Assembly (NCBI RefSeq): GCF_017115085.1
Contig: NZ_JABXKJ010000249.1
Span: 1 to 64,000, forward strand
Direction of reading: 5' to 3'
Length of the DNA: 64,000 nucleotides
Origin: Nostoc sp. NMS7
GTDB lineage: Bacteria; Cyanobacteriota; Cyanobacteriia; Cyanobacteriales; Nostocaceae
The position numbers and the translations under genes were made by a program. Below are positions 16,867-31,561 of this stretch, in pieces (position 1 is the first letter of the stretch; every line of letters begins with the position of its first letter). The notes below the pieces were generated by a model that was not told the origin of the DNA, did no database searches, and saw only the letters and a program-made list of their open reading frames with translations.

Positions 16867-18333
16867 ATGGGCACTAATACTTTGAACGGACGCAACGGAT
16901 ACAAAACCCCAATTTTAGAAAAAGAAGTGATTCCTGATTTAGAGACTTTAGAAGTTGTGACAGCAGAGACATCGGCAACAGCAGAAGCACCTGTTGTCAC
17001 TCCTGAGATCGAGAAAGAAGTTCCAGCTAAGCGGAAAAAACCGACTGGTTTAATTTTGGCAGGCTTAGGTGTGGGTGCGATCGCCGCAGGTATTTTTGGT
17101 TATCACTACTGGCAATATGCCTCCACCCACCAGGAAACAGACAACGCCACCGTAGCCGGAAACATTCACCAAATTAGTAGCCGCATTCCCGGAACTGTAA
17201 GTGAAGTGCTGGTGAATGATAACCAACTGGTGCAACCGGGACAATTGTTAGTCAAGTTAGATCCACGAGACTATCAAAGTAAAGTGCAACAAGCCGCAGC
17301 TGCGCTAGAAAATGCGCGTGGACAGGCGCAAGCCGCCCAAGCAAATATTGCCTTAACTTCACAAACCACCACTGGTAAGACAAGTCAAGCGCAGGGAGAT
17401 GTTAGCAGTGCTGTTGCAGCAATTTCTACAGCCCAAGCAGCAGTACAAGAAGCCCAAGCTGGGATACCGGCGGCGCAAGCTGAAGTCAGACTAGCCCAAG
17501 CGGGGATTCCTGCCGCCCAAGCGCAGGTAGCGCAAACAAATGCGAATTTGGAAAATGCCCAAGCAGATTACAATCGTTATAACGAATTGTATAAAACAGG
17601 TGCAATTCCTCGTCAGCAATTAGATACAGCCAAGGCAGCTTATGATGTGGCTACGGCACAAAAAAACGCGGCTATTCAGGGAGTGGAACAAGCCCAAGCC
17701 AAGTTATCCTCCGCGAAAGTTGGTGTCGCCAAAGCCCAGTCTCAACTAGCACAAGCGCAAGAAAATGTCACCAACGCCCAAGCTAAATTGGCAGCATCCA
17801 AGGGAGGATTGCAACAAGCTACCGCCGGCGGACAAGATACAACAGTAAAACGTAGTCAATACGATGCGGCAAAAGCGGCGATCGCGCAATCAGAAGCATC
17901 GCTCAAAGACGCACAATTGCAACTATCTTACGCCAATGTTACCGCCCCCAGTGCTGGACGAATAGGTAAGAAAAACGTGGAAGTTGGCAACCGAGTCCAA
18001 TCGGGAACACCATTAATGGCGATCGTGGATAACAACTATTGGGTAGTTGCGAACTTCAAAGAAACCCAATTAGAAAAGATGCGCCCAGGAGAACCAGTAG
18101 AAATCAAGCTGGATACTTTCCCTCATCATACCTTTGTTGGTCGTGTTGACAGTGTTTCCCCAGCTTCCGGCGCTCAGTTTGCTTTATTGCCACCGGATAA
18201 CGCTACAGGTAACTTTACTAAAGTTGTCCAACGCATCCCAGTAAAAATAGTTTTCGACCAAAAGAGCATTCAAGGGTACGAATCGCGGATTACACCTGGG
18301 ATGTCTGCGGAAGTTGCTGTGGAAGTCAAGTAA
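16867..18333 (+). CDS. HlyD/EmrA family membrane fusion protein
   Basis: N-terminal TM, biotinyl-lipoyl halves, Ala/Gln-rich coiled coil, 'ANVTAPSAGRIGKKNVEVGNRVQSG'. Confidence 0.9.
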   Translation: MGTNTLNGRNGYKTPILEKEVIPDLETLEVVTAETSATAEAPVVTPEIEKEVPAKRKKPTGLILAGLGVGAIAAGIFGYHYWQYASTHQETDNATVAGNIHQISSRIPGTVSEVLVNDNQLVQPGQLLVKLDPRDYQSKVQQAAAALENARGQAQAAQANIALTSQTTTGKTSQAQGDVSSAVAAISTAQAAVQEAQAGIPAAQAEVRLAQAGIPAAQAQVAQTNANLENAQADYNRYNELYKTGAIPRQQLDTAKAAYDVATAQKNAAIQGVEQAQAKLSSAKVGVAKAQSQLAQAQENVTNAQAKLAASKGGLQQATAGGQDTTVKRSQYDAAKAAIAQSEASLKDAQLQLSYANVTAPSAGRIGKKNVEVGNRVQSGTPLMAIVDNNYWVVANFKETQLEKMRPGEPVEIKLDTFPHHTFVGRVDSVSPASGAQFALLPPDNATGNFTKVVQRIPVKIVFDQKSIQGYESRITPGMSAEVAVEVK

Positions 18334-18359
18334 TACCATGTCCGCTAAATTACCGATAA

Positions 18360-18437
18360 AGAACCCCACCCCCAATCCCTAAGAGCCTGCGGGGAGGGGA
18401 GCTAAAAGCACAGCTTTGGCGGGGTGGGGTTCCAGGT
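18360..18437. repeat. Intergenic inverted repeat (GAACCCCACCCCC ... GGGGTGGGGTTC)
   Basis: aaagaaccccaccccc / ggcggggtggggttcc, downstream of emrA-like gene. Confidence 0.6.
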
Positions 18438-18483
18438 TTTATGGTTAATTGCCCGGACATCATTACAGGAGTTTTCATGTATT

Positions 18484-18542
18484 TGAACCACATCTGTCGT
18501 AGGGGCACAGCAATGCTGTGCCCCTAGCGCGTGGTCTATTTA
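18484..18542. repeat. Dispersed hairpin repeat TAGGGGCACAGCAATGCTGTGCCCCTA, copy 1
   Basis: Flanks 'tgaaccacatctgt' and 'cgcgtggtctattt' shared with the inverted copy at 63754-63813. Confidence 0.85.
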
Positions 18543-18690
18543 CCTGAAAATAGCTGTAAATACCAAATTTGCTGCAAACAGATGAAAAACCTCTTTCTAG
18601 CTGTGATATGTTTCTACATCTATGGAGAGGCACATAGAGATGAAGTGAGATGATATTTATGAAAGCAGATTGGTATAAAACAAACTTGAC

Positions 18691-19953
18691 ATGAAAAAAC
18701 CGCTACTACCTGCATTAAAGTCAAAAAATTACCAGTTGTTTTTTGCTGGACAAGGTATTTCCCTAATTGGGACATGGATGACCCAACTTGCGACGATTTG
18801 GCTAGTTTATGACTTAACAAAGTCCCCATTAATGCTAGGAGTTGTGGGATTTTCGAGTCAAATTCCTAGCTTTTTTTTAGCTCCCTTTGGCGGAGTGTTT
18901 GTAGATCGCTTTTCTCGGTATCGTACCTTAATTAGTACGCAAGTCTTAGCGATGATTCAATCGTTAACATTAGCAGTGCTGGCGCTCACTGGTGTGATTG
19001 AGGTATGGCACATCATCGTCTTGAGTTTGTTTCAAGGATTTATTAACGCCTTAGATGCACCAGCCCGCCAAGCTTTTGTGCCAGAATTGGTTGAACACAG
19101 AGAAGATTTAGCCAATGCGATCGCGATCAACTCTACTATGATCAACGGTGCGCGATTAATTGGCCCTGCGATCGGGGGTTTATTAATTGCTCGCGTTGGA
19201 ACTGGCTATTGTTTTTTAATTGATGGTTTGAGCTACATTGCTGTAATCGCCGCTTTATTGGCGATGCAAGTTAAACCTTGGAAAAATGTGATACCTGACG
19301 GTAATCCCTTGCAAAAAGTCAAAGAGGGATTTGTATATGCCTTTAGCTTCCCACCGATTCGATCTGTCTTATTGCTATCAGCTTTAGTTAGTTTTATGGG
19401 ACTGCAAAACACTATTCTCGTACCAGTTATGGCAGAACAAGTTCTCAAAGGTGGTGCAGAAACTTTGGGATTTTTGATGGCGGCATCTGGAGTTGGAGCC
19501 TTAACTGGTGGTATCTATCTAGCTACGCGCCAAACAATCTTGGGAATTGGGAAATTGATTGCCTTAGCTCCAGCAATTTTAGGAATTGGTCTAATTGCCT
19601 TTTCTTTGTCTCGATTTTTACCGCTTTCCTTATTTACAATGTTATTTGTTGGCTTGGGAACAATTCTTCAGATTGCTGCTAGCAACACATTTTTACAAAC
19701 AATTGTTGAGGACGACAAACGCGGACGATTAATGAGCTTATACACGATGTCATTTTTGGGGATGATTCCCGTGGGTAATTTATTAGGAGGTTTATTAGCA
19801 AGTCATATTGGTGCTTCTAACACTTTAATTATTGATGGTATAGCTTGTATTATCGGGTCGATTATTTTTAGCAGACAGTTGCCTGCTTTAAGGAAAATAA
19901 TGCGTCCAATTTATGAGCAAAAGGGCATTATTATCACGACTCAGGAAGTTTAA
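18691..19953 (+). CDS. MFS transporter (EntS-like)
   Basis: 'QGISLIGTWMTQLATIWLVYDLTKSPLMLGVVGFSSQIPSFFLAPFGGVFVDR'. Confidence 0.88.
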   Translation: MKKPLLPALKSKNYQLFFAGQGISLIGTWMTQLATIWLVYDLTKSPLMLGVVGFSSQIPSFFLAPFGGVFVDRFSRYRTLISTQVLAMIQSLTLAVLALTGVIEVWHIIVLSLFQGFINALDAPARQAFVPELVEHREDLANAIAINSTMINGARLIGPAIGGLLIARVGTGYCFLIDGLSYIAVIAALLAMQVKPWKNVIPDGNPLQKVKEGFVYAFSFPPIRSVLLLSALVSFMGLQNTILVPVMAEQVLKGGAETLGFLMAASGVGALTGGIYLATRQTILGIGKLIALAPAILGIGLIAFSLSRFLPLSLFTMLFVGLGTILQIAASNTFLQTIVEDDKRGRLMSLYTMSFLGMIPVGNLLGGLLASHIGASNTLIIDGIACIIGSIIFSRQLPALRKIMRPIYEQKGIIITTQEV

Positions 19954-20019
19954 GATAGTTAACCGCAATTAGATTTAGATTTAGATTTAGATTTATGTTA
20001 TACCAGTTTGCAGTTGAGT

Positions 20020-20190
20020 CAAATACAGACCTAACCCCCAACCCCTTACGCCAGATGCTACCCTGCGGGAACGCTAAGAGCGAACAAGTCGGCGGAGCCG
20101 CCCAACGCACTGGCTCCCCTACTAGCGTTGGGGAGTAAGATTTAAAGCCTCTCTCCTAAAAGGAGAGAGGAATGGAAGTGAAGTCAAAGC
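20020..20190. repeat. Dispersed intergenic repeat with internal insertion; related inverted copy at ~10005-10110
   Basis: 'acctaacccccaacccctt ... gcctctctcctaaaaggagagagg' matches the reverse complement of 'cctctctccttttaggagagaggc...aaggggttgggggttaggt'. Confidence 0.7.
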
Positions 20191-20325
20191 TGTATTGCAC
20201 CCAAGTGAGAACCTCTATAATGAGCTTTTATCGACTACTCATATTTTAATTTCGCCGCGCAGAGAGAAATAAAATATTTAATAATAACATTTTTTACTAC
20301 TTAACTTTGAAACAGGAAAAAGACT

Positions 20326-21906
20326 ATGGCTAACACAGGTGTAATTGGTCAGCAAGCACCACCAGAACGTGTACCGCTAAGAACTTGGATTGGTGTATTA
20401 GCCAGTATGCTTGGTGCATTTATGGCGGTATTAGATATTCAAATAACTAATGCTTCGCTGCAAGACATTCAAGCAAGTTTAGGAGCAACTCTAGAAGAAG
20501 GTTCTTGGATTTCTACAGCGTATCTGGTGGCAGAAATTGTGGTAATTCCTCTAACAGGATGGTTATCACGGGTGTTTTCTCTGCGACGTTATCTGTTAGT
20601 GAATACTGCCCTATTTATTTTCTTTTCTATATGCTGTGGTTGGTCGTGGGATCTCAATTCCATGATTTTATTTCGGGTCTTACAAGGTTTTAGTGGAGGA
20701 GTATTAATTCCCACCGCTATGACAGTTGTATTAACAACTTTACCTCAATCTAAGCAATCAATTGGGCTGGCGGCATTTGGGTTTAGTGCAGTTTTTGCAC
20801 CCTCAATTGGCCCAACATTAGGAGGTTGGTTAACAGAAAATTTTGGTTGGGAATACAACTTTTATATAAATGTAATTCCAGGGGTATTAATGCTGGCTGG
20901 CGTTTGGTACGGAATTAAGCAAGAACGACCCCAAATTAATTTACTAAAACAAGGTGACTGGTGGGGAATTATTGCAATGGCTATTGGATTAGGTTCCCTG
21001 CAAGTTGTTTTAGAAGAAGGTAGTCGCAAAGATTGGTTTAGTTCAACGCTGATTGTGCGCTTAAGTGCGATCGCAGTAATTTTTTTAGTCGTGTTTTTCT
21101 TTATAGAATTAACTCGTAAACAACCATTTATTAATTTACGGCTTGTGCTTAGGCGGAACTTTGGTTTAGCGAGTATTGTCAATGTGTCGCTGGGAATAGG
21201 ATTGTATGGTTCAATTTATATTTTACCTCTGTATCTCGCCCAAATTCAACAATACAATGCGCTGCAAATTGGTGAAGTATTAATTTGGGCTGGTATTCCC
21301 CAACTATTTATTATTCCCCTTATACCCAAATTGATGCAACGTATTGATGTGCGGTTAATGGTGGCTGTTGGTGTGACTTTGTTTTCTATCAGTGCGTTTA
21401 TGAACTCTGGAATGACTAATCAAACAGGATTAGATCAGTTACGCTGGTCGCAATTTGTGCGTGCAATGGGACAACCTCTAATTATGGTGCCGCTTAGTTC
21501 TATCGCCACTGCTGGATTGAGTCAGCAAGAAGCAGGTTCAGCGAGTGGTTTATTTAATATGATGCGGAATTTGGGCGGTTCTATAGGAATTGCATCTTTA
21601 GCAACTTTATTAACTAACAGAGAGCAATTTCACTCGAATAGATTGGGTGATGGAGTATCTTTATATAACCCAGAAACTCAACAGCGACTTGACCAAATGA
21701 CCCAGTATTTTATCAGTAGGGGAGCCGATTTGAGTACAGCACAAAATCAAGCGATCGCATCCATATCTAACATTGTCCGCCGGGAAGCATTTGTAATGGC
21801 TTTTAACGATTGTTTCTACTTTATTGGCATTGCTTTGTTACTCAGTGGCATTGCCATTTTATTCTTGAAAAAGGTGAAGCCAACTGGTGGCGCTGTCGCA
21901 CATTAG
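20326..21906 (+). CDS. DHA2-family MFS drug transporter (EmrB/QacA-like)
   Basis: 'ASMLGAFMAVLDIQITNASLQDIQASLGATLEEGSWISTAYLVAEIVVIPLTGWLS'. Confidence 0.9.
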   Translation: MANTGVIGQQAPPERVPLRTWIGVLASMLGAFMAVLDIQITNASLQDIQASLGATLEEGSWISTAYLVAEIVVIPLTGWLSRVFSLRRYLLVNTALFIFFSICCGWSWDLNSMILFRVLQGFSGGVLIPTAMTVVLTTLPQSKQSIGLAAFGFSAVFAPSIGPTLGGWLTENFGWEYNFYINVIPGVLMLAGVWYGIKQERPQINLLKQGDWWGIIAMAIGLGSLQVVLEEGSRKDWFSSTLIVRLSAIAVIFLVVFFFIELTRKQPFINLRLVLRRNFGLASIVNVSLGIGLYGSIYILPLYLAQIQQYNALQIGEVLIWAGIPQLFIIPLIPKLMQRIDVRLMVAVGVTLFSISAFMNSGMTNQTGLDQLRWSQFVRAMGQPLIMVPLSSIATAGLSQQEAGSASGLFNMMRNLGGSIGIASLATLLTNREQFHSNRLGDGVSLYNPETQQRLDQMTQYFISRGADLSTAQNQAIASISNIVRREAFVMAFNDCFYFIGIALLLSGIAILFLKKVKPTGGAVAH

Positions 21907-21953: not shown

Positions 21954-22538
21954 ATGGTAATTAGCCAAAATAAGTACTATATCTCTCCAAAATAATACTT
22001 AGAAAGCGAAAAAGTAAGTGAAATAAAACACGAGTATATTGATGGGCAAGTCTACGCAATGGCAGGGGCAAGTGATGCTCATGTCACAGTTAGCATGAAT
22101 GTATCTATGCTCTTGCGAAACCATCTCCGGGGTAGTGATTGCCGTGTCTATATGTTAGACATGAAAGCACAAATTGATGTCATAAATCGCTATTTCTATC
22201 CTGATGTGATGGTTACTTGTGATATACGAGATAAAGAATTTGAATATTTTAAGTGCTATCCTAGCTTAATTATCGAGGTGTTTTCTGAGTCAACAGAAGG
22301 CTATGACAGAGGGAAGAAATTTGCCAGCTACCAACACTTAGAATCACTACAAGAGTATGTGCTAATTTCACCAGACAGAATGAGTGTAGAATGCTTCCGC
22401 CGCAATGAGGAAGGAAATTCGGTACTTTACCTTTATGAAGAAGAAGTCTATTTAGCTAGCGTTGATTTCCGTTGTGCGATGCCTACGGCGGGCTACGCCT
22501 ACGCAGCTATATATGAAGATGTATTATTAGTAGATTAA
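21954..22538 (+). pseudogene. Uma2-family endonuclease with in-frame nonsense codon near the N-terminus
   Basis: Frame from ATG 21954: MVISQNKYYISPK*YLESEKVSEIKHEYIDGQVYAMAGASDAHVTVS...; TAA at 21993-21995; track ORF starts at 22059. Confidence 0.8.
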
Positions 22539-22576: not shown

Positions 22577-23647
22577 ATGAAAGTTCCTGTTGTTTTGATT
22601 GTTTTTAATCGTCCTGATTATACTGCTCAAGTCTGGGAGTCCATCCGCCAAGCTCAACCTCAACAATTATGGGTGATTGCAGATGGGCCGCGTCCCCATG
22701 TTCCTAAGGATATTGAACAGTGTCAAGCTGCAAGAGCGATCGTCGAAACGGTAGATTGGCCTTGTGAGGTTATGAAAAATTATGCTAGTGAAAATTGGGG
22801 ATGTGGGAAAAGAGTATTTAGTGGATTATCTTGGGTATTTGATCAAGTTGAAGAAGCTATTATTTTAGAGGATGATTGTCTACCTAACCCGACTTTCTTC
22901 CCATTTTGTACAGAATTGCTCGCTCGCTATCGATTCGATCCTCGTATTTTGCTCATTAGTGGACGCAATGATCTCGGGCAGTGGAAAAGTGACCAGCAAA
23001 GCTACCATTTTTCTCATTATGGAAGCATTTGGGGTTGGGCAAGTTGGCAACGGGCTTGGAAACTCTGTGATCCCAGTTTAAAATCCTTTGACTCAACGAC
23101 CATTCTTCAAACTCTAAGTGAAGTCTTAGCGGACTCAGAACAGGTAAATTATCGCTTTTGGCTTTATGAGAATATTCTAAATGGGCGCATTGATACTTGG
23201 GATATTCAATGGGCTTTGGCTCGATTACTTGATCAAGGTTTAGAAATTGCTCCTTCTGTAAACTTAGTCAAAAATTTAGGCTTTGATCCTCAAGCAACTC
23301 ATACTAAAAAAGTAGATGATCTGCGCGCAGAGATTATTTCTAGTTCAATGCAATTTCCTTTACAACATCCTCCGGAAATATTTCAGAGTGATGATAACTT
23401 TGATCGTCAAACTTTTTTAATGCAACTAATGAGCACCTATAAACAAGTCCGGGCTTTGAAGGTCTTGCAACAAGCGATCGCTCAGGGGAAAACACCACCT
23501 CATTTAGAACCAGGAATTTTCCATGCACTCACGCCACTTTACCACTTGCAAGAAGCAAATTCAGTATTAAAACATATTTTACAATGGAATCCTAGCCATA
23601 AAGCGGCTAATTTACTTTGCCAGGAATTTCAAAAATTTTTACACTGA
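22577..23647 (+). CDS. glycosyltransferase (GT2-like, HlpA-type)
   Basis: 'VPVVLIVFNRPDYTAQVWESIRQ...WVIADGPRP...AIILEDDCLPNPTFFPFC...HYGSIWGWASWQRAW'. Confidence 0.8.
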   Translation: MKVPVVLIVFNRPDYTAQVWESIRQAQPQQLWVIADGPRPHVPKDIEQCQAARAIVETVDWPCEVMKNYASENWGCGKRVFSGLSWVFDQVEEAIILEDDCLPNPTFFPFCTELLARYRFDPRILLISGRNDLGQWKSDQQSYHFSHYGSIWGWASWQRAWKLCDPSLKSFDSTTILQTLSEVLADSEQVNYRFWLYENILNGRIDTWDIQWALARLLDQGLEIAPSVNLVKNLGFDPQATHTKKVDDLRAEIISSSMQFPLQHPPEIFQSDDNFDRQTFLMQLMSTYKQVRALKVLQQAIAQGKTPPHLEPGIFHALTPLYHLQEANSVLKHILQWNPSHKAANLLCQEFQKFLH

Positions 23648-24856
23648 TCACGCCTCAGATTTTAAGACTAAGCTGATCGACTTGTGGAGCATTCGCCATC
23701 CTTTTTGTAGCAATATCCCTGGCAGTTGCCAGACATGATCTAATTTCCATTGATGCTTTAAAAATTCCAAGAATCCTTCAGAATAACCAGACTGCTCATA
23801 CTGGCACTTTAAGGAATATTCCTCATATCGATACTGTAAACTTAAGTAGTAGTCTAACATTACTGAAGTTGCCTTGATTCGCGGAAAAGGTTGAAGTTGG
23901 TGTTCATATAGAATCTTTTCGTTTAAGGAATTAGATATTTTTGCTAATTTTTCTAAAACTTCTACAGGAATTGGGGCATTCAAAACAAACTTTAAATAGC
24001 CAAGAGTATCGTACAAAGGTTGATTAAGATGAAATTGCTCGGCGAAATTGACGAGTCTTTGCCAGTCTAAATCAGGTGATTGCTGTAAAATAATCCAAGC
24101 ATCTACAGCCCAACGGAGTGGGGGTAAAGAATTCCATCGCGCACCATGAATACAAACATGAAATAGCTGATCGCTAGGATTGAGAATCTTGACTGTCCCA
24201 CCACGAATTTGTAGCGATTCAGAAGCTTGCCAAAAAGCTGCATCTAACTCTGGAATACATTCGTGAAGAATATGCCAATGAAGATCAAGTTCTAAGCCAC
24301 TTTCGTTGATAAAAGTTTGAGCGTGCCGTATTGAAAGTAAATGCTTTGAGCGAGAATAAGATTCACCTGGCTTTTCGTACCATTGAAGGTTTTCCAAGAC
24401 TTGAACTGCAATCTCCACTTGTTCAGAGGACACTAGTAAATCTAAATCATTCATGGAGCGACAGCCAATATTTTGATAGTAGCGTGAGATTAATGCCACT
24501 CCCTTTAACAACAACGTTGAAATCCCTGCTCCCTCAAAGGCTCGAATTACTTTTTCTAGCTGATGTAGAAGTAACTGATTTTTATACCAAATTTTGCAAT
24601 AAACGCCTTTTAGTTTAAGTAAAATTGGATCTTCAATCGGATGACTTCTTAGGTTGTAATAAAGCTGGGATAGAAGACGATAAGAACCACTATCAATACT
24701 GTCAAAATCAACTGTATTTCTCCACTCTCGCCAAACAAGTAGGCTTTCTTGTCCCTGCCATAAAGCCGCCTTCAAAAGCAGTTCTTGGAATGAATTTGGC
24801 CAAGGGCCTTGTGGGTAACGAAGCAAAAGAGACGCATCATAATTCTTCTGAGTCAT
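23648..24856 (-). CDS. nucleotidyltransferase family protein (NTP_transf_5-like)
   Basis: 'GISTLLLKGVALISRYYQNIGCRSMNDLDLLV' and 'ELDLHWHI...FHVCIHGARWNSLPPLRWAVDAWIIL'. Confidence 0.85.
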   Translation of the reverse strand: MTQKNYDASLLLRYPQGPWPNSFQELLLKAALWQGQESLLVWREWRNTVDFDSIDSGSYRLLSQLYYNLRSHPIEDPILLKLKGVYCKIWYKNQLLLHQLEKVIRAFEGAGISTLLLKGVALISRYYQNIGCRSMNDLDLLVSSEQVEIAVQVLENLQWYEKPGESYSRSKHLLSIRHAQTFINESGLELDLHWHILHECIPELDAAFWQASESLQIRGGTVKILNPSDQLFHVCIHGARWNSLPPLRWAVDAWIILQQSPDLDWQRLVNFAEQFHLNQPLYDTLGYLKFVLNAPIPVEVLEKLAKISNSLNEKILYEHQLQPFPRIKATSVMLDYYLSLQYRYEEYSLKCQYEQSGYSEGFLEFLKHQWKLDHVWQLPGILLQKGWRMLHKSISLVLKSEA

Positions 24857-25188
24857 TTAAAGACACCTAAAACTTTACAAAAGTACCAAAGAATTTAAAA
24901 AACTTAAGGCTCAATAACTGTTTCAGGGAGATGAGCTAAGGAAAAAGCCTAAAAGGGTTGTTGAACCAAAAGTGATCCAAGTGCTGAAGATATCCGGGGC
25001 TGAAAGTAAAGAGCAGCATATATTTCAAGCGCTTCTCTCCAAATCCCTCCCCGAAAACCCTATAGAGCCAAACTTAAAACTACTTATGCTTACTGCATCT
25101 ATCTCCCAAGAAATCCGTATTGTTACTGAGACCTAAACCTGGTTTAACATTGTACACTCTTTGGAGCGAATAATAGAGTATAGAATTT

Positions 25189-25647
25189 ATGAATTACAAG
25201 ACTTGCTTTAAGTTTAGAGATTCCCAGATTGTATATGAGTTTTTTGATGATGAGGTCATTTTAATTGATTTCAACAATGGTAGCTATTATCACCTAAACG
25301 GAGTAGGACTGATTATTTTGAAGGGAGTTGAAGAAGAAAAGTCACTGCTGGAAATTATTCAACTTCTTTTACAAAATTTTATAAATTGTCCTCCAGATTT
25401 ACAGCAAGTTGTCACAACTTTTTTAGAGGAGTTACAACGAGAATCTCTTATTGTTGTTAACACTGAAGCTTTAGACAATGGCAATAATACGGAAGCTAGC
25501 CAGAACGATCCATCTTCTGAGTCACTGCCAGTATTTCAGCTTCCCTCTCTCAAAAAATATACTGATATGCAAGATTTACTCTTACTTGATCCCATTCATG
25601 ATGTAGATGATGCAGGCTGGCCTGTACGTTTACCCTCATCCAGGTAG
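25189..25647 (+). CDS. PqqD-like (RiPP recognition element) protein with C-terminal extension
   Basis: 'VYEFFDDEVILIDFNNGSYYHLNGVGLIILKGVEEEKSLLEIIQLLL' PqqD-like; extension 'LPSLKKYTDMQDLLLLDPIHDVDDAGWPVRLPSSR'. Confidence 0.8.
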   Translation: MNYKTCFKFRDSQIVYEFFDDEVILIDFNNGSYYHLNGVGLIILKGVEEEKSLLEIIQLLLQNFINCPPDLQQVVTTFLEELQRESLIVVNTEALDNGNNTEASQNDPSSESLPVFQLPSLKKYTDMQDLLLLDPIHDVDDAGWPVRLPSSR

Positions 25648-25666
25648 TCTTTGTTTTTCTTTCTTT

Positions 25667-26689
25667 ATGGATGCGAACGCGTATTTTAGTGCGGCCCACA
25701 AAGCATTTTGCCAAGCTCAAGTTCAGCAAGGGAATATTGAGTACTGGTACAAAATCGGCGGATATATCATCTGTCAGCGTTTTGCTGGACAAGCTTTAAT
25801 TCCTCAAATGACCGAGGCTTTATCTCACTTGCAAATTTCTCCTTGTTCCTCAGCAGATTTGACAATTTGTCTTTGGGACAGTTCTTCTACAGGCATAGCC
25901 ATGCCTTCTCCCCCTTGGTCGGTTTATGATTACGGCGATCGTGGATTAGTAAATGGCTATAATTGCGATCGCTTTTGTACCCTGTTTCAAGTTGGACCTG
26001 ATGTTTTGCACCTTTTTGATCGAGATCGTCAGCTAGCTCTGTATTGGGTTAAAACAGCAGCGCAAATTCCTTATTGGGAACATAGTTTTCCATTGCGGAT
26101 CGCGCTACATTGGTGGACTCGTTCTTTTCCACTCCAATTAGTTCATGCAGGAGCAGTAGGGACGCAGACGGGCTGTGTATTACTGACAGGTAAAAGTGGT
26201 TCCGGAAAATCAACAACGACCTTAGCTTGCCTAGAAGCCGGGCTGCTATATCTAGGAGATGACTACGTAATGATACAAACTGAACCGATTTCTAGTGTTT
26301 ATAGTCTTTACAATACTGCCAAACTGGAAGCTAGTAACCTATGGCGCTTTCCCAATCTAGCCAATAATGTTAGTAATTTGGAACGATTAAACTGCGAAAA
26401 AGCCTTAATATTTTTACACAATCACAGACCGGAACAGTTAATATCTCATTTACCTATTCGGGCTGTTTTAACACTTGAGATTAGCCATCAGGAAAATTCT
26501 TCACTCCAGAAACGCTCCCCCTCAGAAAGTTTTGCCGCTTTAGCTCCCACAACGACTTTCCACCTCCCCCGATATACTAAAGTTATTACTCAAAAAATTG
26601 CTGCTTTAGTTAATCAGGTACCCAATTACAGATTAATCTTAGGTACTAATTTAAAACAAATTCCTGAAGCTGTTTTGAGTTTGCTCTAG
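25667..26689 (+). CDS. HPr kinase-related (HprK-like) protein
   Basis: 'FPLQLVHAGAVGTQTGCVLLTGKSGSGKSTTTLACLEAGLLYLGDDYVMI' P-loop; start at ATG 25667 preferred over 25607, which overlaps the PqqD ORF. Confidence 0.8.
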   Translation: MDANAYFSAAHKAFCQAQVQQGNIEYWYKIGGYIICQRFAGQALIPQMTEALSHLQISPCSSADLTICLWDSSSTGIAMPSPPWSVYDYGDRGLVNGYNCDRFCTLFQVGPDVLHLFDRDRQLALYWVKTAAQIPYWEHSFPLRIALHWWTRSFPLQLVHAGAVGTQTGCVLLTGKSGSGKSTTTLACLEAGLLYLGDDYVMIQTEPISSVYSLYNTAKLEASNLWRFPNLANNVSNLERLNCEKALIFLHNHRPEQLISHLPIRAVLTLEISHQENSSLQKRSPSESFAALAPTTTFHLPRYTKVITQKIAALVNQVPNYRLILGTNLKQIPEAVLSLL

Positions 26690-26949
26690 TCAGAAATTCA
26701 TGGAAGTAACGCTCTTTTATCACTCTCATGAAAGAATAAATGATATGTCGTAAACGCTTTGCTAGACTATGTTTGGCAAAATTCCAGCAATCTCCTTTCT
26801 CTAATTACTTAAAAGTACATTGGTTCTGTTTTTTTTAACAAATGACCACAGAGCCGATATTCTATTACTTGCTTCCTAGAATATATTTTGTTCTCCTCTA
26901 GCAAAAGCACACTCCTTTGACTCACAATCTAAAAGATTAAGTAGCTAGA

Positions 26950-27660
26950 ATGAAACCAACTCTAAGCATTATTATTCCCATTTATAATGGTGCAAAATTT
27001 TTGTCTCAAGCTGTTCATTGTATTCAGCAGCAGGAAGAATTACCTAAAAATACAGAAATCTGGCTGATTGATGATGGCTCTACGGATGATACGGCAGCGA
27101 TCGCCCAACAATTTTCTGTAAATTATTATTATCAACCTCGGCAAGGTTCTGCCTCGGCTCGGAATCAAGGAATTTTAATCACTCAAGGTGAATTTATTGC
27201 CTTTCTAGATGTAGATGATTTGTGGTCACCTAATAAATTAAAAACTCATCTCGCTGTGTTATTAGCTCAACCTGAAATTTCTATTGTTAAAGGTTTGATA
27301 CAGGAAATGCATTTAAATCAGTCCTCTGATATCAGGGGCAATCAGGAAAATGATATCGATTTTGAATTCAAAGGTAAACCCTATGAAAGTTTTCATTTAG
27401 GAGCTACAACCTTTCGGCGGAGTATTTTTGAGCAGGTCGGTTTGTTAGATGAAACATTTTGGTATGGGGAGGATGTAGAGTGGTTTGTACGAGCTAAAGA
27501 TAAGGGTGTGACCTCTGTAGTAGTACCTCAAATCTCTCTTTACTACCGTCGTCATTTAAATAGTCTAACCATGCAATGTAAACAGCAACCTCTGGGATTA
27601 ACCAAAGCATTACATAAACTATTGACACAGCGTCAACTTTTGAATTCTCCCTTTGGTTGA
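26950..27660 (+). CDS. glycosyltransferase family 2
   Basis: 'LSIIIPIYNGAKFLSQAVHCIQQQ...LIDDGSTDDTAAIAQ...SARNQGI...FLDVDDLW'. Confidence 0.92.
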   Translation: MKPTLSIIIPIYNGAKFLSQAVHCIQQQEELPKNTEIWLIDDGSTDDTAAIAQQFSVNYYYQPRQGSASARNQGILITQGEFIAFLDVDDLWSPNKLKTHLAVLLAQPEISIVKGLIQEMHLNQSSDIRGNQENDIDFEFKGKPYESFHLGATTFRRSIFEQVGLLDETFWYGEDVEWFVRAKDKGVTSVVVPQISLYYRRHLNSLTMQCKQQPLGLTKALHKLLTQRQLLNSPFG

Positions 27661-27694
27661 GTTTTTAATTAAGTAATCTTTATTATTTGTACTT

Positions 27695-28384
27695 ATGAAT
27701 ACTTCTAACCTCGTTAGTATTATTGTGGTTGTCAAGAACGGTGAACGTTATTTGAAAGCAGCCTTAGATAGTATTCAACAGCAAAACTACTCCAATTATG
27801 AAACTATTGTGATTGATGGAGCTTCAACGGATCGAACAGCCGAAATTGCTCAGTCTTACTTAGGTATGATTTATCAACAACAAGATGGGAAAGGATTAGC
27901 CCAAGCACGGAATACTGGAATTTCGGTAGCGCAGGGAGAATTAATTACCTTTCTAGATCATGATGATTACTGGGAAGTCAATTCCTTAAGTCAACGGGTA
28001 AATTCTCTCTTATTGGAACCACAGATCCAGGGAACTGTAGGATATTTAGAAAAATTTTTTGAATCTGATTATAAAACTACGGAATCACTTAAAGATGAAG
28101 AAGCTTTTAAGCCCATCATTGGTTATACACCTGGTACTCTTTTAGCTAGACGAACACTTTTTGAACAGGTGGGAGGTTTCAATTCAGAATTTAAGATTGG
28201 ATGCGATAGTGAATGGTTTGCACGAGTTCAAGACCAGGAAATTTTACTAAAAGTTTTACCGATATTAGTCTTGTACAAACGTTTACATAATAATAATCTT
28301 TCTTCTCAAAAAGAAGTTTATCGCCAAGAAATTTTTATTTTATTGCAACAATCTTTGAAGCGTCGTCAGGCTTATAAACGATAG
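27695..28384 (+). CDS. glycosyltransferase family 2
   Basis: 'VSIIVVVKNGERYLKAALDSIQQQNYSNYETIVIDGASTDRTAEIA...FLDHDDYW'. Confidence 0.92.
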   Translation: MNTSNLVSIIVVVKNGERYLKAALDSIQQQNYSNYETIVIDGASTDRTAEIAQSYLGMIYQQQDGKGLAQARNTGISVAQGELITFLDHDDYWEVNSLSQRVNSLLLEPQIQGTVGYLEKFFESDYKTTESLKDEEAFKPIIGYTPGTLLARRTLFEQVGGFNSEFKIGCDSEWFARVQDQEILLKVLPILVLYKRLHNNNLSSQKEVYRQEIFILLQQSLKRRQAYKR

Positions 28385-28461
28385 ATAAAGCGAAAATAAC
28401 ACCTATAATTTATAATCCAATTTGGCGTTACTAAGTCAACCTTTTAATCCTGATTATTGAG

Positions 28462-29916
28462 TTGCTAACTGTGACATTACATATCTTACATATTATTAAT
28501 CGATTATCTGGAGACGGCCCAACGCGATCGCTTTTAGCAATGGTGAAGTATTCTAAGTGCCTTGGTCTTGCTCAAGAACATCGAATTTTAGCCTTGCAAG
28601 AAGCAGCCTCTGGGCTAGCTCGTTTACTAGCAAAGCAAGTTGGAGTTCCCTTTTTACTAAATCCTTCTATAGAGGAAGTTGAAGCAGAGTTATCTAGGGC
28701 TGATATTGTTCAACTTCACTTTTGGAATTGCCCAGAAAATTATGAGTTTTTGAGAGGGGATTGGCCACCTATTCGGTTATTAATTTGGTCAAAAATTTTA
28801 GGTGATCAAGCACCTCAGATTATTACTCAAGATATTATTGCTGTTTCAGATTTTTTTGTGGCCACAAATTCTTTAACCCTTGATTTAATGGTTTTTGAAT
28901 TCTCTAAAATAGAACTACAATCTCGACAAAAAATAGGATTGGTTTCTGGAGTTGCAGATTTTGATCGATTGAGTAATTTTCAAACTCAACTTCATAGTAC
29001 TTTTAATGTTGGCTATATTGGCACTGTCAATTTTGCTAAAATGCACCCTGATTATATGTCCATGAGTGCTGCTATTCAGATTTCTGATATTCGTTTTATT
29101 GTTTGTGGCGGTGGAATTGAAGCAGAGTTGAAACAACAAGCTGCAACCTTAGGGGTAACAGAAAAATTTAACTTCCGAGGATATGTCGAAAATATTCGGT
29201 CTATCCTATCAATTTTAGATGTTTTTGGGTATCCCCTTTGCCCAGAAACCTATGCGACGAGTGAAAAATCTTTGCAAGAAGCAATGTATGCTGGAATTCC
29301 TCCCGTCGTTTTTCCCTATGGAGGTGTTAAATCTTTGGTACAACATCAAGAAACTGGGCTAGTGGTTGAAAATGAGCGAGAGTATCAACAAGCCATCGAG
29401 TATCTTTATCACAATCCGCAAGAACGACTCAAATTAGGGTATAACGCTCAACAGTATATTCGTCAGCACTTTGATGGAAAAAATTTAACCCGGAAAATGC
29501 ACCAAATTTATGAACAAATGATGCGATCGCCAAAACGGCTCCATCCTTGGCCAGATGATTTGTCTTCTAAAACTTCTGCCGAAGGATTTGTGAAATCTTT
29601 AGGCAATGCAGGATCTCAATTTGCGATTAGTTTACAGCCTCAAAGTTTTGAGGAAGCTGTACAAGGAGATCAATTAATTGCTCGTTCTTCAATGCTTTTA
29701 GCCCAAGGAGAAGGAGGAATTGTTCATTATCGTAACAAAAATCCCCAAGATGGTTTTTTACGCTTTTGGACAGGGTTAGTTTTTTATCATAAACAACAGT
29801 TTTCTAAAGCTTTAACAGAATTTGAAGCAGCGATCGCTTTGGGCTGTGATTACAGACAAGTAAATTGGTTCATTGAAAAAGTCTTGCATCAAATAGATCA
29901 AAAGGGCAAATCTTAG
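28462..29916 (+). CDS. glycosyltransferase family 4 with C-terminal TPR-like extension
   Basis: 'LHIINRLSGDGPTRSLLAMVKYS...SEKSLQEAMYAGIPPVVFPYGGVKSLVQHQETGLVVEN'; C-terminal 'RFWTGLVFYHKQQFSKALTEFEAAIALG'. Confidence 0.85.
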   Translation: MLTVTLHILHIINRLSGDGPTRSLLAMVKYSKCLGLAQEHRILALQEAASGLARLLAKQVGVPFLLNPSIEEVEAELSRADIVQLHFWNCPENYEFLRGDWPPIRLLIWSKILGDQAPQIITQDIIAVSDFFVATNSLTLDLMVFEFSKIELQSRQKIGLVSGVADFDRLSNFQTQLHSTFNVGYIGTVNFAKMHPDYMSMSAAIQISDIRFIVCGGGIEAELKQQAATLGVTEKFNFRGYVENIRSILSILDVFGYPLCPETYATSEKSLQEAMYAGIPPVVFPYGGVKSLVQHQETGLVVENEREYQQAIEYLYHNPQERLKLGYNAQQYIRQHFDGKNLTRKMHQIYEQMMRSPKRLHPWPDDLSSKTSAEGFVKSLGNAGSQFAISLQPQSFEEAVQGDQLIARSSMLLAQGEGGIVHYRNKNPQDGFLRFWTGLVFYHKQQFSKALTEFEAAIALGCDYRQVNWFIEKVLHQIDQKGKS

Positions 29917-29944
29917 AAAAATTTATTTATATAAGAATATTACT

Positions 29945-31561
29945 GTGTGGCACTATTATCTCAATCTATATCAACTCGATCGAATTCGTTTAGGGTTGGT
30001 AATTTTAGCCGTTATTAGTCAATCCTTGCTCCTGATTCCTTTTGCAGGTCTAATTCGTTCAATGTTTGATATTGTCATTCCCAATTTCAATATCTCTCAA
30101 CTTTTAATTAATACTTGCTTATTGCTAGGTTTATATTTAATTCAACAATTATTGGCATTTTGGTCTGAGTATACAATTACAGAAATTACTTTGACTGTTT
30201 CCCAAAAATTGCGAGAAATAATTTTAAAAAAACTATATACCTTTTCTTGGCATTATCACAATCAAATTAATCTAGGAAACTTTCATGCCAGCCTTGTTCA
30301 TGATATAGGTCATGTAGAAACCGTTAGTAAGCTTTTAATTGCCCGTTGGCTGCCTGCCCTAGTTACTATTGCTTGCTTAAGCTTCATTTTAATAATTTAT
30401 AACTGGATTTTATTTCTGGTTATGATTGTTTCAGTTCCATCCTCTATCTTAATGGGGAAGAGACTCAAAAATCGCATCAAAAGTAATTTTGCTCTCAAGC
30501 GCCAAGCAATTATAGATTTTAGTGATCTTACTCTAACAGCCCTCAAAACTATTGAATTAACTCGGATTCAAACGGCAGAGCTACTTGAGATTGAGAACCA
30601 ACAAAATCAACTATCAATTCTTAAATCTACCAGCTTAAATTTTACTCGATTGCAAACGCTTTATAATGTACTCCAGCAAATTATTGTGACTTTGGCTAAG
30701 TTATTACTGCTTGTTGTCGGCAGTTTACTGATTTATTTGCATCAATTAACCCTCGGGTCATTGATTGCTTTTTTTGTTGCGGCTAGTCAATTTAATTCTG
30801 CTTTCAATGAGTTAAACACTGCTTTGCCTAATTTTCTAACGATGTCTCAATCCTTAAAGGCTTTGATGCAAATTATTCAAACTCACGATACAGAGCCTTA
30901 TTCTGGAAAATTACAGATTGCATTTCAAGGAAATCTTAGTTTTAAGAATGTTAATTTTCAATATGATGATCGCCCTGTTTTACAAAATTTAAACTTAAAA
31001 ATTCTTCCCCAATCCATCGTCGCTATTGTCGGGGATAATGGTGTCGGTAAAAGTACCCTGATTCGTCTGATCTTAGGATTTTATATCCCCACACAAGGAG
31101 AGATTTTAATTGATCACTATCCTTTAAGCCAACTAGATATTAGTTATTGGCGAAAAAACTTAGGAGTTGTGACTCAAAACTCAGTTTTTATTCCCGGAAC
31201 AATCTGGGAAAACTTAACCTATGGTTGCCCTCATTTATCAATGGCAGAGGTAATTGAAGCGACAAAAATATCTGCGGCTCACGATTGGATCTGTCACTTA
31301 CCTAAAAGCTATCATACTTTGATTGGTGAAGAAGCGAATTGGCTATCGGGCGGGCAACGTCAAAAAATTGCGATCGCCAGAGCTTTGCTCCGTCGTCCCA
31401 AATTTCTGATCTTTGATGAACCAACTAATCATCTGGATCAAACTACTATTACTACCATTATGCAAAACTTAACAATACTTCCCGATCGTCCAACCATTTT
31501 ATTAGTAAGTCATGATCCAACTGTGATTGCTTATGCCCATCAGGTTTACAGAATTTCCTAG
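29945..31561 (+). CDS. ABC transporter, fused permease and ATP-binding domains
   Basis: TM domain; Walker A GDNGVGKSTL; signature LSGGQRQ; Walker B FLIFDEPTNHLD; H-loop. Confidence 0.92.
   Translation: MWHYYLNLYQLDRIRLGLVILAVISQSLLLIPFAGLIRSMFDIVIPNFNISQLLINTCLLLGLYLIQQLLAFWSEYTITEITLTVSQKLREIILKKLYTFSWHYHNQINLGNFHASLVHDIGHVETVSKLLIARWLPALVTIACLSFILIIYNWILFLVMIVSVPSSILMGKRLKNRIKSNFALKRQAIIDFSDLTLTALKTIELTRIQTAELLEIENQQNQLSILKSTSLNFTRLQTLYNVLQQIIVTLAKLLLLVVGSLLIYLHQLTLGSLIAFFVAASQFNSAFNELNTALPNFLTMSQSLKALMQIIQTHDTEPYSGKLQIAFQGNLSFKNVNFQYDDRPVLQNLNLKILPQSIVAIVGDNGVGKSTLIRLILGFYIPTQGEILIDHYPLSQLDISYWRKNLGVVTQNSVFIPGTIWENLTYGCPHLSMAEVIEATKISAAHDWICHLPKSYHTLIGEEANWLSGGQRQKIAIARALLRRPKFLIFDEPTNHLDQTTITTIMQNLTILPDRPTILLVSHDPTVIAYAHQVYRIS

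Follow-up and report, generated by a model that had tools for sequence, protein, structure and literature searches.

A gene cluster at positions 22577-31561 of a 64,000-nucleotide stretch of Nostoc sp. NMS7 (contig NZ_JABXKJ010000249.1, positions 1 to 64,000; hereafter the window) encodes a PqqD-like protein that ends in a highly conserved peptide. We propose, with a probability of roughly 55%, that this protein is a self-loaded recognition element for ribosomally synthesized and post-translationally modified peptides (RiPPs), or RRE, which presents its invariant peptide to a module formed by a kinase (KIN), a nucleotidyltransferase (NTase) and glycosyltransferases. An earlier annotation of this region, made from its letters alone (the original prediction), listed the PqqD gene correctly but overlooked the C-terminal peptide of its product, which is the strongest clue both to the mechanism and to the origin of the peptide ligand of the RRE.

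The RRE domain extends to about residue 90 of 152 and is followed by a variable linker, by FQLPSL and by KYTDMQDLLLLDPIHDVDDAGWP. The consensus of the tail, C-terminal to the RRE and the linker, is [F/Y/W]xxPx[L/V]xK[Y/F][T/S]DMxDLLxLDPIHxVDxxGWP. All seven full-length matches of a whole-protein search, run on relatives of the window genome, share this ending, and the tail motif is present in 80/80 loci retained as the best from a genome-wide scan that gave 220 related contigs. Because these loci were picked by their TDM..L and LDPIH stretches, conservation there is to some extent a product of the selection, in which the aromatic-xxP-x-L and GWP columns played no part. In an alignment of 74 rows, the latter columns carry F/Y/W (74/74), P (73/74), L/V/M/I (74/74) and GWP (74/74). 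In this alignment conservation is higher in the tail than in the RRE domain, with a mean information per column of 2.32 bits for the RRE, 0.81 for the linker and 3.7 for the core peptide. Three loci (L035, L048 and L060) carry two copies of the tail end (SGWPN..xKGWPTR or DWPTR), possibly as a repeated core or docking unit.

The PF05402 score and the winged helix-turn-helix (wHTH) fold place the domain among PqqD/RRE proteins, as originally predicted. Its nearest RREs are TbiB1, then PbaB1, TfuB1 and LppB by profile, and the TbiB1-leader structures 5v1v/5v1u (TMt 0.86 to 5v1v) and TfuB1 6jx3 by fold (Foldseek); on both measures, these are RREs solved with a leader bound. The leaders of lasso peptides and of the LPP (linear polyphosphorylated peptide) system, which is compared below, carry the motif [Y/W]xxPx[L/V/I/F/A], which sits in the groove of the RRE (PMC13381572), and motifs of this kind have been noted with hydrophobic substitutions (PMC12710340). 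The tail motif is identical to the published one save for Phe at the first position (PMC13381572). In the AlphaFold model, the linker is of low confidence, the leader-motif region that follows forms a strand at residues 121-124 (confidence score, pLDDT, about 94), and the invariant DPIH..GWP segment is again of low confidence (about 60-66). Moreover, pocket position 74 aligns by eye with two leader-binding residues, LppB Asp70 (bonded to the leader Tyr) and PbaB1 Gln79 (bonded to the leader Trp), and is A/G/S in 58/74 rows, mostly accompanied by Phe in the motif; a small residue fits a Phe ligand, which lacks a hydroxyl. The motif, the strand assignment and the model confidence thus suggest that the aromatic-xxP-x-L strand of the tail fills the leader groove of its own RRE. 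One observation weighs against this step: in a distant family of the cyanobacterial phylum (f47, loci L105-L124) the aromatic-xxP-L motif is degenerate, though DPIHEV..GW and KIN persist, so groove filling would not be universal.

KIN was originally described as HprK-like, which holds for its fold and its profile relationships: a profile built from 48 KIN relatives finds HPrK structures (1jb1, E 6e-6), the AlphaFold model (pLDDT 95) matches PEPCK (E 4e-11), and the P-loop (Walker A), an upstream His and a downstream Asp-Asp are conserved, which places it in the HPrK/PEPCK superfamily. HPrK and PEPCK have a common fold. The description does not hold at the level of the family models, with 21.8 bits against the Pfam HPrK cut-off of 33.3 and 24 bits against the TIGR04352 cut-off of 200. 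As listed, the KIN open reading frame (ORF) opens at 25607, within the end of PqqD; since homologues align from 25667, the gene probably starts there and does not overlap PqqD.

Tail and kinase occur together. Among 386 surveyed genomes from the window's phylum (the cyanobacterial phylum), 29 match the tail profile; tail and a strong KIN match (E < 1e-15) occur together in 29/29 and apart in 0/357, and 28 of the 29 pairs share one contig, within about 6 kb. The Fisher p value of 2.5e-44 takes genomes as independent and is overstated, since the genomes are related. In addition, RRE and KIN distances correlate (Mantel r 0.72, p 0.001), and the pairing is also found in f47, whose divergent version carries DAQELLLADPIHEVKEETGWTPEKDSIGYT and a kinase of ~500 amino acids (aa), keeps the core and has its gene order rearranged to GT2-NTase-KIN-PqqD-GT2 (GT2 and GT4 being glycosyltransferase families; genomes of 1.6-2.5 Mb). 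In one complete-looking genome (G342), a single ORF comprises the RRE, the tail, a second RRE-like stretch and KIN, with the NTase gene adjoining. Fusions of KIN with GT2 (~600 aa) occur in eight loci (L047, L048, L051, L055, L060, L061, L072 and L076), labelled Nitrospirota/Thermodesulfovibrionia or Deltaproteobacteria/Syntrophaceae; the long kinase ORFs in L082 and L085 look like frame extensions and were not counted. Co-occurrence and natural fusion show KIN to be a partner of the tail, and the two may be in physical contact.

The original prediction had named neighbourhood comparison as its own test, and the NTase, PqqD and kinase genes do co-occur with glycosyltransferase and ABC genes elsewhere. 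ORF clustering of 81 homologous loci recovered KIN in 68, GT2 in 66, NTase in 61, ABC in 34 and GT4 in 15, counts that are lower bounds because contigs end. The neighbourhood is not due to chance. Only the PqqD protein with its tail, KIN, GT2 and NTase are constant partners, and the recurring order is PqqD-KIN-GT2-GT2-(GT2)-ABC-NTase, with a cyanobacterial variant that includes SDR and SMP-30-like genes. This pair (SDR and SMP-30/gluconolactonase-like) lies between the GT2s and the NTase gene in cyanobacterial loci such as L022, L028, L029, L033 and L045. A Pfam tally of 141 of the 241 qualifying neighbour ORFs, read for its 25 commonest families, lists SDR, GT4, SMP-30, radical SAM, epimerase and TPR families as common neighbours. 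As originally noted for the window, no lasso cyclase (asparagine-synthetase-like) or leader peptidase is present in its operon; the same is true of B2 protease and of archaeal-type signal peptidase I (LppS), and none of the four is among these recurring families, although a rare peptidase could be missed because the tally covers the 25 commonest. Wzx/Wzy-type genes are likewise not among them.

The best 80 of the 220 relatives come from more than ten phyla. The groups include cyanobacteria, Chloroflexota, Nitrospirota, Deltaproteobacteria, Acidobacteria, Bacteroidetes and Ignavibacteria, Lentisphaerae, one gamma- and one betaproteobacterium, Candidatus Anammoxibacter, Candidatus Bipolaricaulota, Bacillota and Thermoleophilia; single assignments, as labelled in the records, may be wrong because most relatives are metagenome-assembled genomes. 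A search of plasmids returned one named copy, on the 44 kb mobilizable plasmid pCRI9333.04 of Crinalium epipsammum PCC 9333 (L167, NC_019735.1), where the set is annotated gene by gene, and such a location could account for the patchy spread. The viral contigs searched contained no relative of the system, and a search for near-identical DNA found none. As a defence system the cluster was rejected: PADLOC gave no matches except generic ATPase ones to the ABC protein.

The interpretation given in the original prediction is partly supported: its RRE-guided kinase, nucleotidyl and glycosyl module is borne out by the co-occurrence of its genes in many phyla, whereas the known context in which it placed them, discussed below, is not. 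We propose that the cluster is a self-contained, RRE-directed system for phospho- and glycosyl-modification. The PqqD protein would be an RRE carrying its own leader, with the aromatic-xxP-x-L strand of the tail filling its own groove. A short capped helix and DPIH[ED]VDxxGWP would thereby be held out for KIN and, with it, for the NTase and the GT2s. This module may then phosphorylate, glycosylate and extend an acceptor, and the product would be exported where an ABC exporter is present. These steps are suggested by the enzyme families and by two precedents: PsmK phosphorylates a lasso peptide and PsmN adds a hexose to that phosphate (PMC9266682), and LppK phosphorylates LppA (PMC13381572).

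It is tempting to speculate that the tail is itself the substrate. The leader-like strand would then lie in the groove, and the DPIH..GWP core would be phosphorylated and glycosylated and afterwards either excised and exported or retained as a glycoprotein, in an LPP-like pathway with RRE and precursor in one chain. This idea draws on the presence of a leader motif and an invariant core on one chain, on the low-confidence and apparently exposed core, on the tandem GWP repeat of three loci and on both enzymatic precedents; moreover, the short ORFs at the 81 loci yielded no separate precursor. However, the tail has no invariant Ser, Thr or Tyr: position 125 is T/S/N/D in 110/112 distinct tails (A once, V once), a pattern like that of a helix N-cap, and Thr125 was judged unlikely as a phosphorylation site. 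In addition, no peptidase recurs among the neighbour families, and the tail of G342 is internal to the kinase chain, so its release would cost one kinase per peptide. Because these three points outweigh the leader-core layout, the exposed core and the GWP duplication, we favour the self-loaded RRE as a presenting hub and consider the fused precursor a rather doubtful alternative. Similarly, the tail is slightly more likely to serve mainly as a docking platform, with the acceptor elsewhere or on the same protein, than as a released core peptide.

An ordinary exopolysaccharide cluster, with PqqD in an accessory or regulatory role and a sugar or a regulator as the target of the kinase, is unlikely. 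The surrounding glycosyltransferases, SDR and lactonase-like proteins, epimerases and TPR proteins would suit it, and LPP loci too are situated in capsule regions (PMC13381572), but the constant partners are limited to the four named above, Wzx/Wzy-type genes do not recur, and an accessory role does not explain a tail more conserved than the RRE. Less probable still is a true RRE substrate in the form of a short peptide, unlinked or unannotated, with the tail as a self-inhibitory pseudo-leader: the RRE fold is retained and the tail could perhaps be displaced in trans, but no family of short ORFs around the 81 loci was shared by more than three of them, and the few families found were antisense- or repeat-like.

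Features of the cluster in the window, and the fusion ORF of G342
Feature	Position	Strand	Evidence
GT2-like protein with C-terminal TPR-like end, accessory	22577..23647	+	Pfam Glycos_transf_2 15.5 bits, under cut-off
NTP_transf_5 nucleotidyltransferase (NTase), divergent from PqqD	23648..24856	-	PF14907 156 bits (cut-off 31.2)
PqqD/RRE protein with conserved peptide tail, 152 aa	25189..25647	+	PF05402 40.4 bits (cut-off 23.4)
RRE (wHTH) domain, aa 7-90	25207..25458	+	AlphaFold pLDDT 91-97; nearest folds 5v1v/5v1u, 6jx3
Variable linker, aa 91-113	25459..25527	+	0.81 bits/column; pLDDT about 60-74
Leader-like motif FQLPSL, aa 116-121 ([F/Y/W]xxPx[L/V/I/M])	25534..25551	+	Alignment of 74 rows; AlphaFold strand
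Invariant peptide DMQDLLLLDPIHDVDDAGWP, aa 126-145	25564..25623	+	3.7 bits/column; pLDDT about 60-66
HPrK/PEPCK-fold P-loop kinase (KIN), probable extent	25667..26689	+	HPrK profile match, PEPCK fold match, conserved residues
GT2 glycosyltransferase	26950..27660	+	PF00535 103 bits
GT2 glycosyltransferase	27695..28384	+	PF00535 94 bits
GT4 glycosyltransferase with TPR end	28462..29916	+	PF00534 73 bits
ABC half-exporter, MsbA/type-I secretion type	29945..31561	+	PF00664 and PF00005
PqqD-tail-KIN fusion ORF of G342	L159:8174-10120 (also L104)	-	

The gene list of the original prediction largely stands. The minus-strand NTase gene is indeed divergent from PqqD, and the two GT2s, the GT4 and the ABC protein score far over the Pfam cut-offs. 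The supposedly fused ABC transporter is an exporter, as predicted, but an ordinary half-transporter with one transmembrane and one nucleotide-binding domain. The upstream GT2-like ORF exists and its relatives adjoin the cluster elsewhere (L016, L030, L053, L083 and L164), but its resemblance to GT2 is weak. In profile searches across the window's assembly, NTP_transf_5 and PqqD have one match each, and the tail is likewise single. A gene for a putative Uma2-family endonuclease lies just upstream of the cluster (22059-22538; PF05685, 92.6 bits), and an HlyD-like adaptor with two major-facilitator transporters (16867-21906), read from sequence, forms an apparent efflux cassette unrelated to it.

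RREs are known for binding the leaders of separate precursors; if our proposal is true, an RRE joined to its own leader-like motif and to an invariant peptide would represent a different enzyme organisation. The tail also provides a sequence tag by which a widespread pathway, apparently undescribed so far, can be searched for. In addition, the cluster connects kinase/NTase pairs, familiar from lasso and LPP clusters, with glycan assembly beyond Bacillota, and a few genes would suffice to test what NTP_transf_5 proteins attach to phosphorylated peptides. Should the tail prove to be a fused precursor after all, which we regard as only tentative, the cluster would define a RiPP class whose invariant core gives rise to a conserved phosphoglycopeptide or peptide-derived cofactor in more than ten phyla.

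A published description of the RRE-tail fusion or of the gene set was not found in the literature searched, which was short of most subscription papers and of all bioRxiv preprints. The original prediction had placed the cluster in the context of HPr-rel-A (TIGR04352/TIGR04353), which likewise pairs a kinase with a PqqD-like protein. This placement did not survive: apart from the low TIGR04352 score of KIN, TIGR04353 matches only 2/74 members of the PqqD family. Membership of SynChlorMet was also rejected (ScmD 32 bits against 100; ScmC weakly matches 2/48 kinases). The RREs of TbiB1, TfuB1 and PqqD have the same fold and leader-binding groove and bind a separate peptide in trans, whereas the RRE described here carries the motif in cis. 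The paeninodin and pseudomycoidin lasso clusters (PMC9266682) similarly combine an RRE, an HprK-like kinase and an NTase acting on a leader-guided peptide. In contrast to them, our cluster has no cyclase, B2 protease or lasso precursor, and KIN has a longer N-terminal region, HprK-related models matching around the P-loop only. The closest known system is LPP (lppA-K-B-S-D-N, Bacillota; PMC13381572, Nat Commun 2026), and the cluster works like LPP in its enzyme set: both have a discrete-type RRE, an HprK-like kinase, an NTP transferase and an MsbA-like exporter, an [aromatic]xxPx[L/V] leader motif and glycosyltransferase-rich surroundings, and both do without a cyclase. The kinase, the NTP transferase and the MsbA-like transporter stand beside the RRE in the window, an ABC gene being present in 34/81 loci. 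However, neither the SpI peptidase nor a separate LppA (YxxPxVLxHQxIxFETxxS) recurs, no short ORF being recurrent, and we therefore do not file the cluster as LPP. Here, instead, RRE and leader-like peptide form one fusion protein, the motif of the peptide begins with Phe and leads into DMxDLLxLDPIHxVDxxGWP rather than HQxIxFETxxS, GT2s belong to the core, and the system extends to many phyla outside Bacillota.

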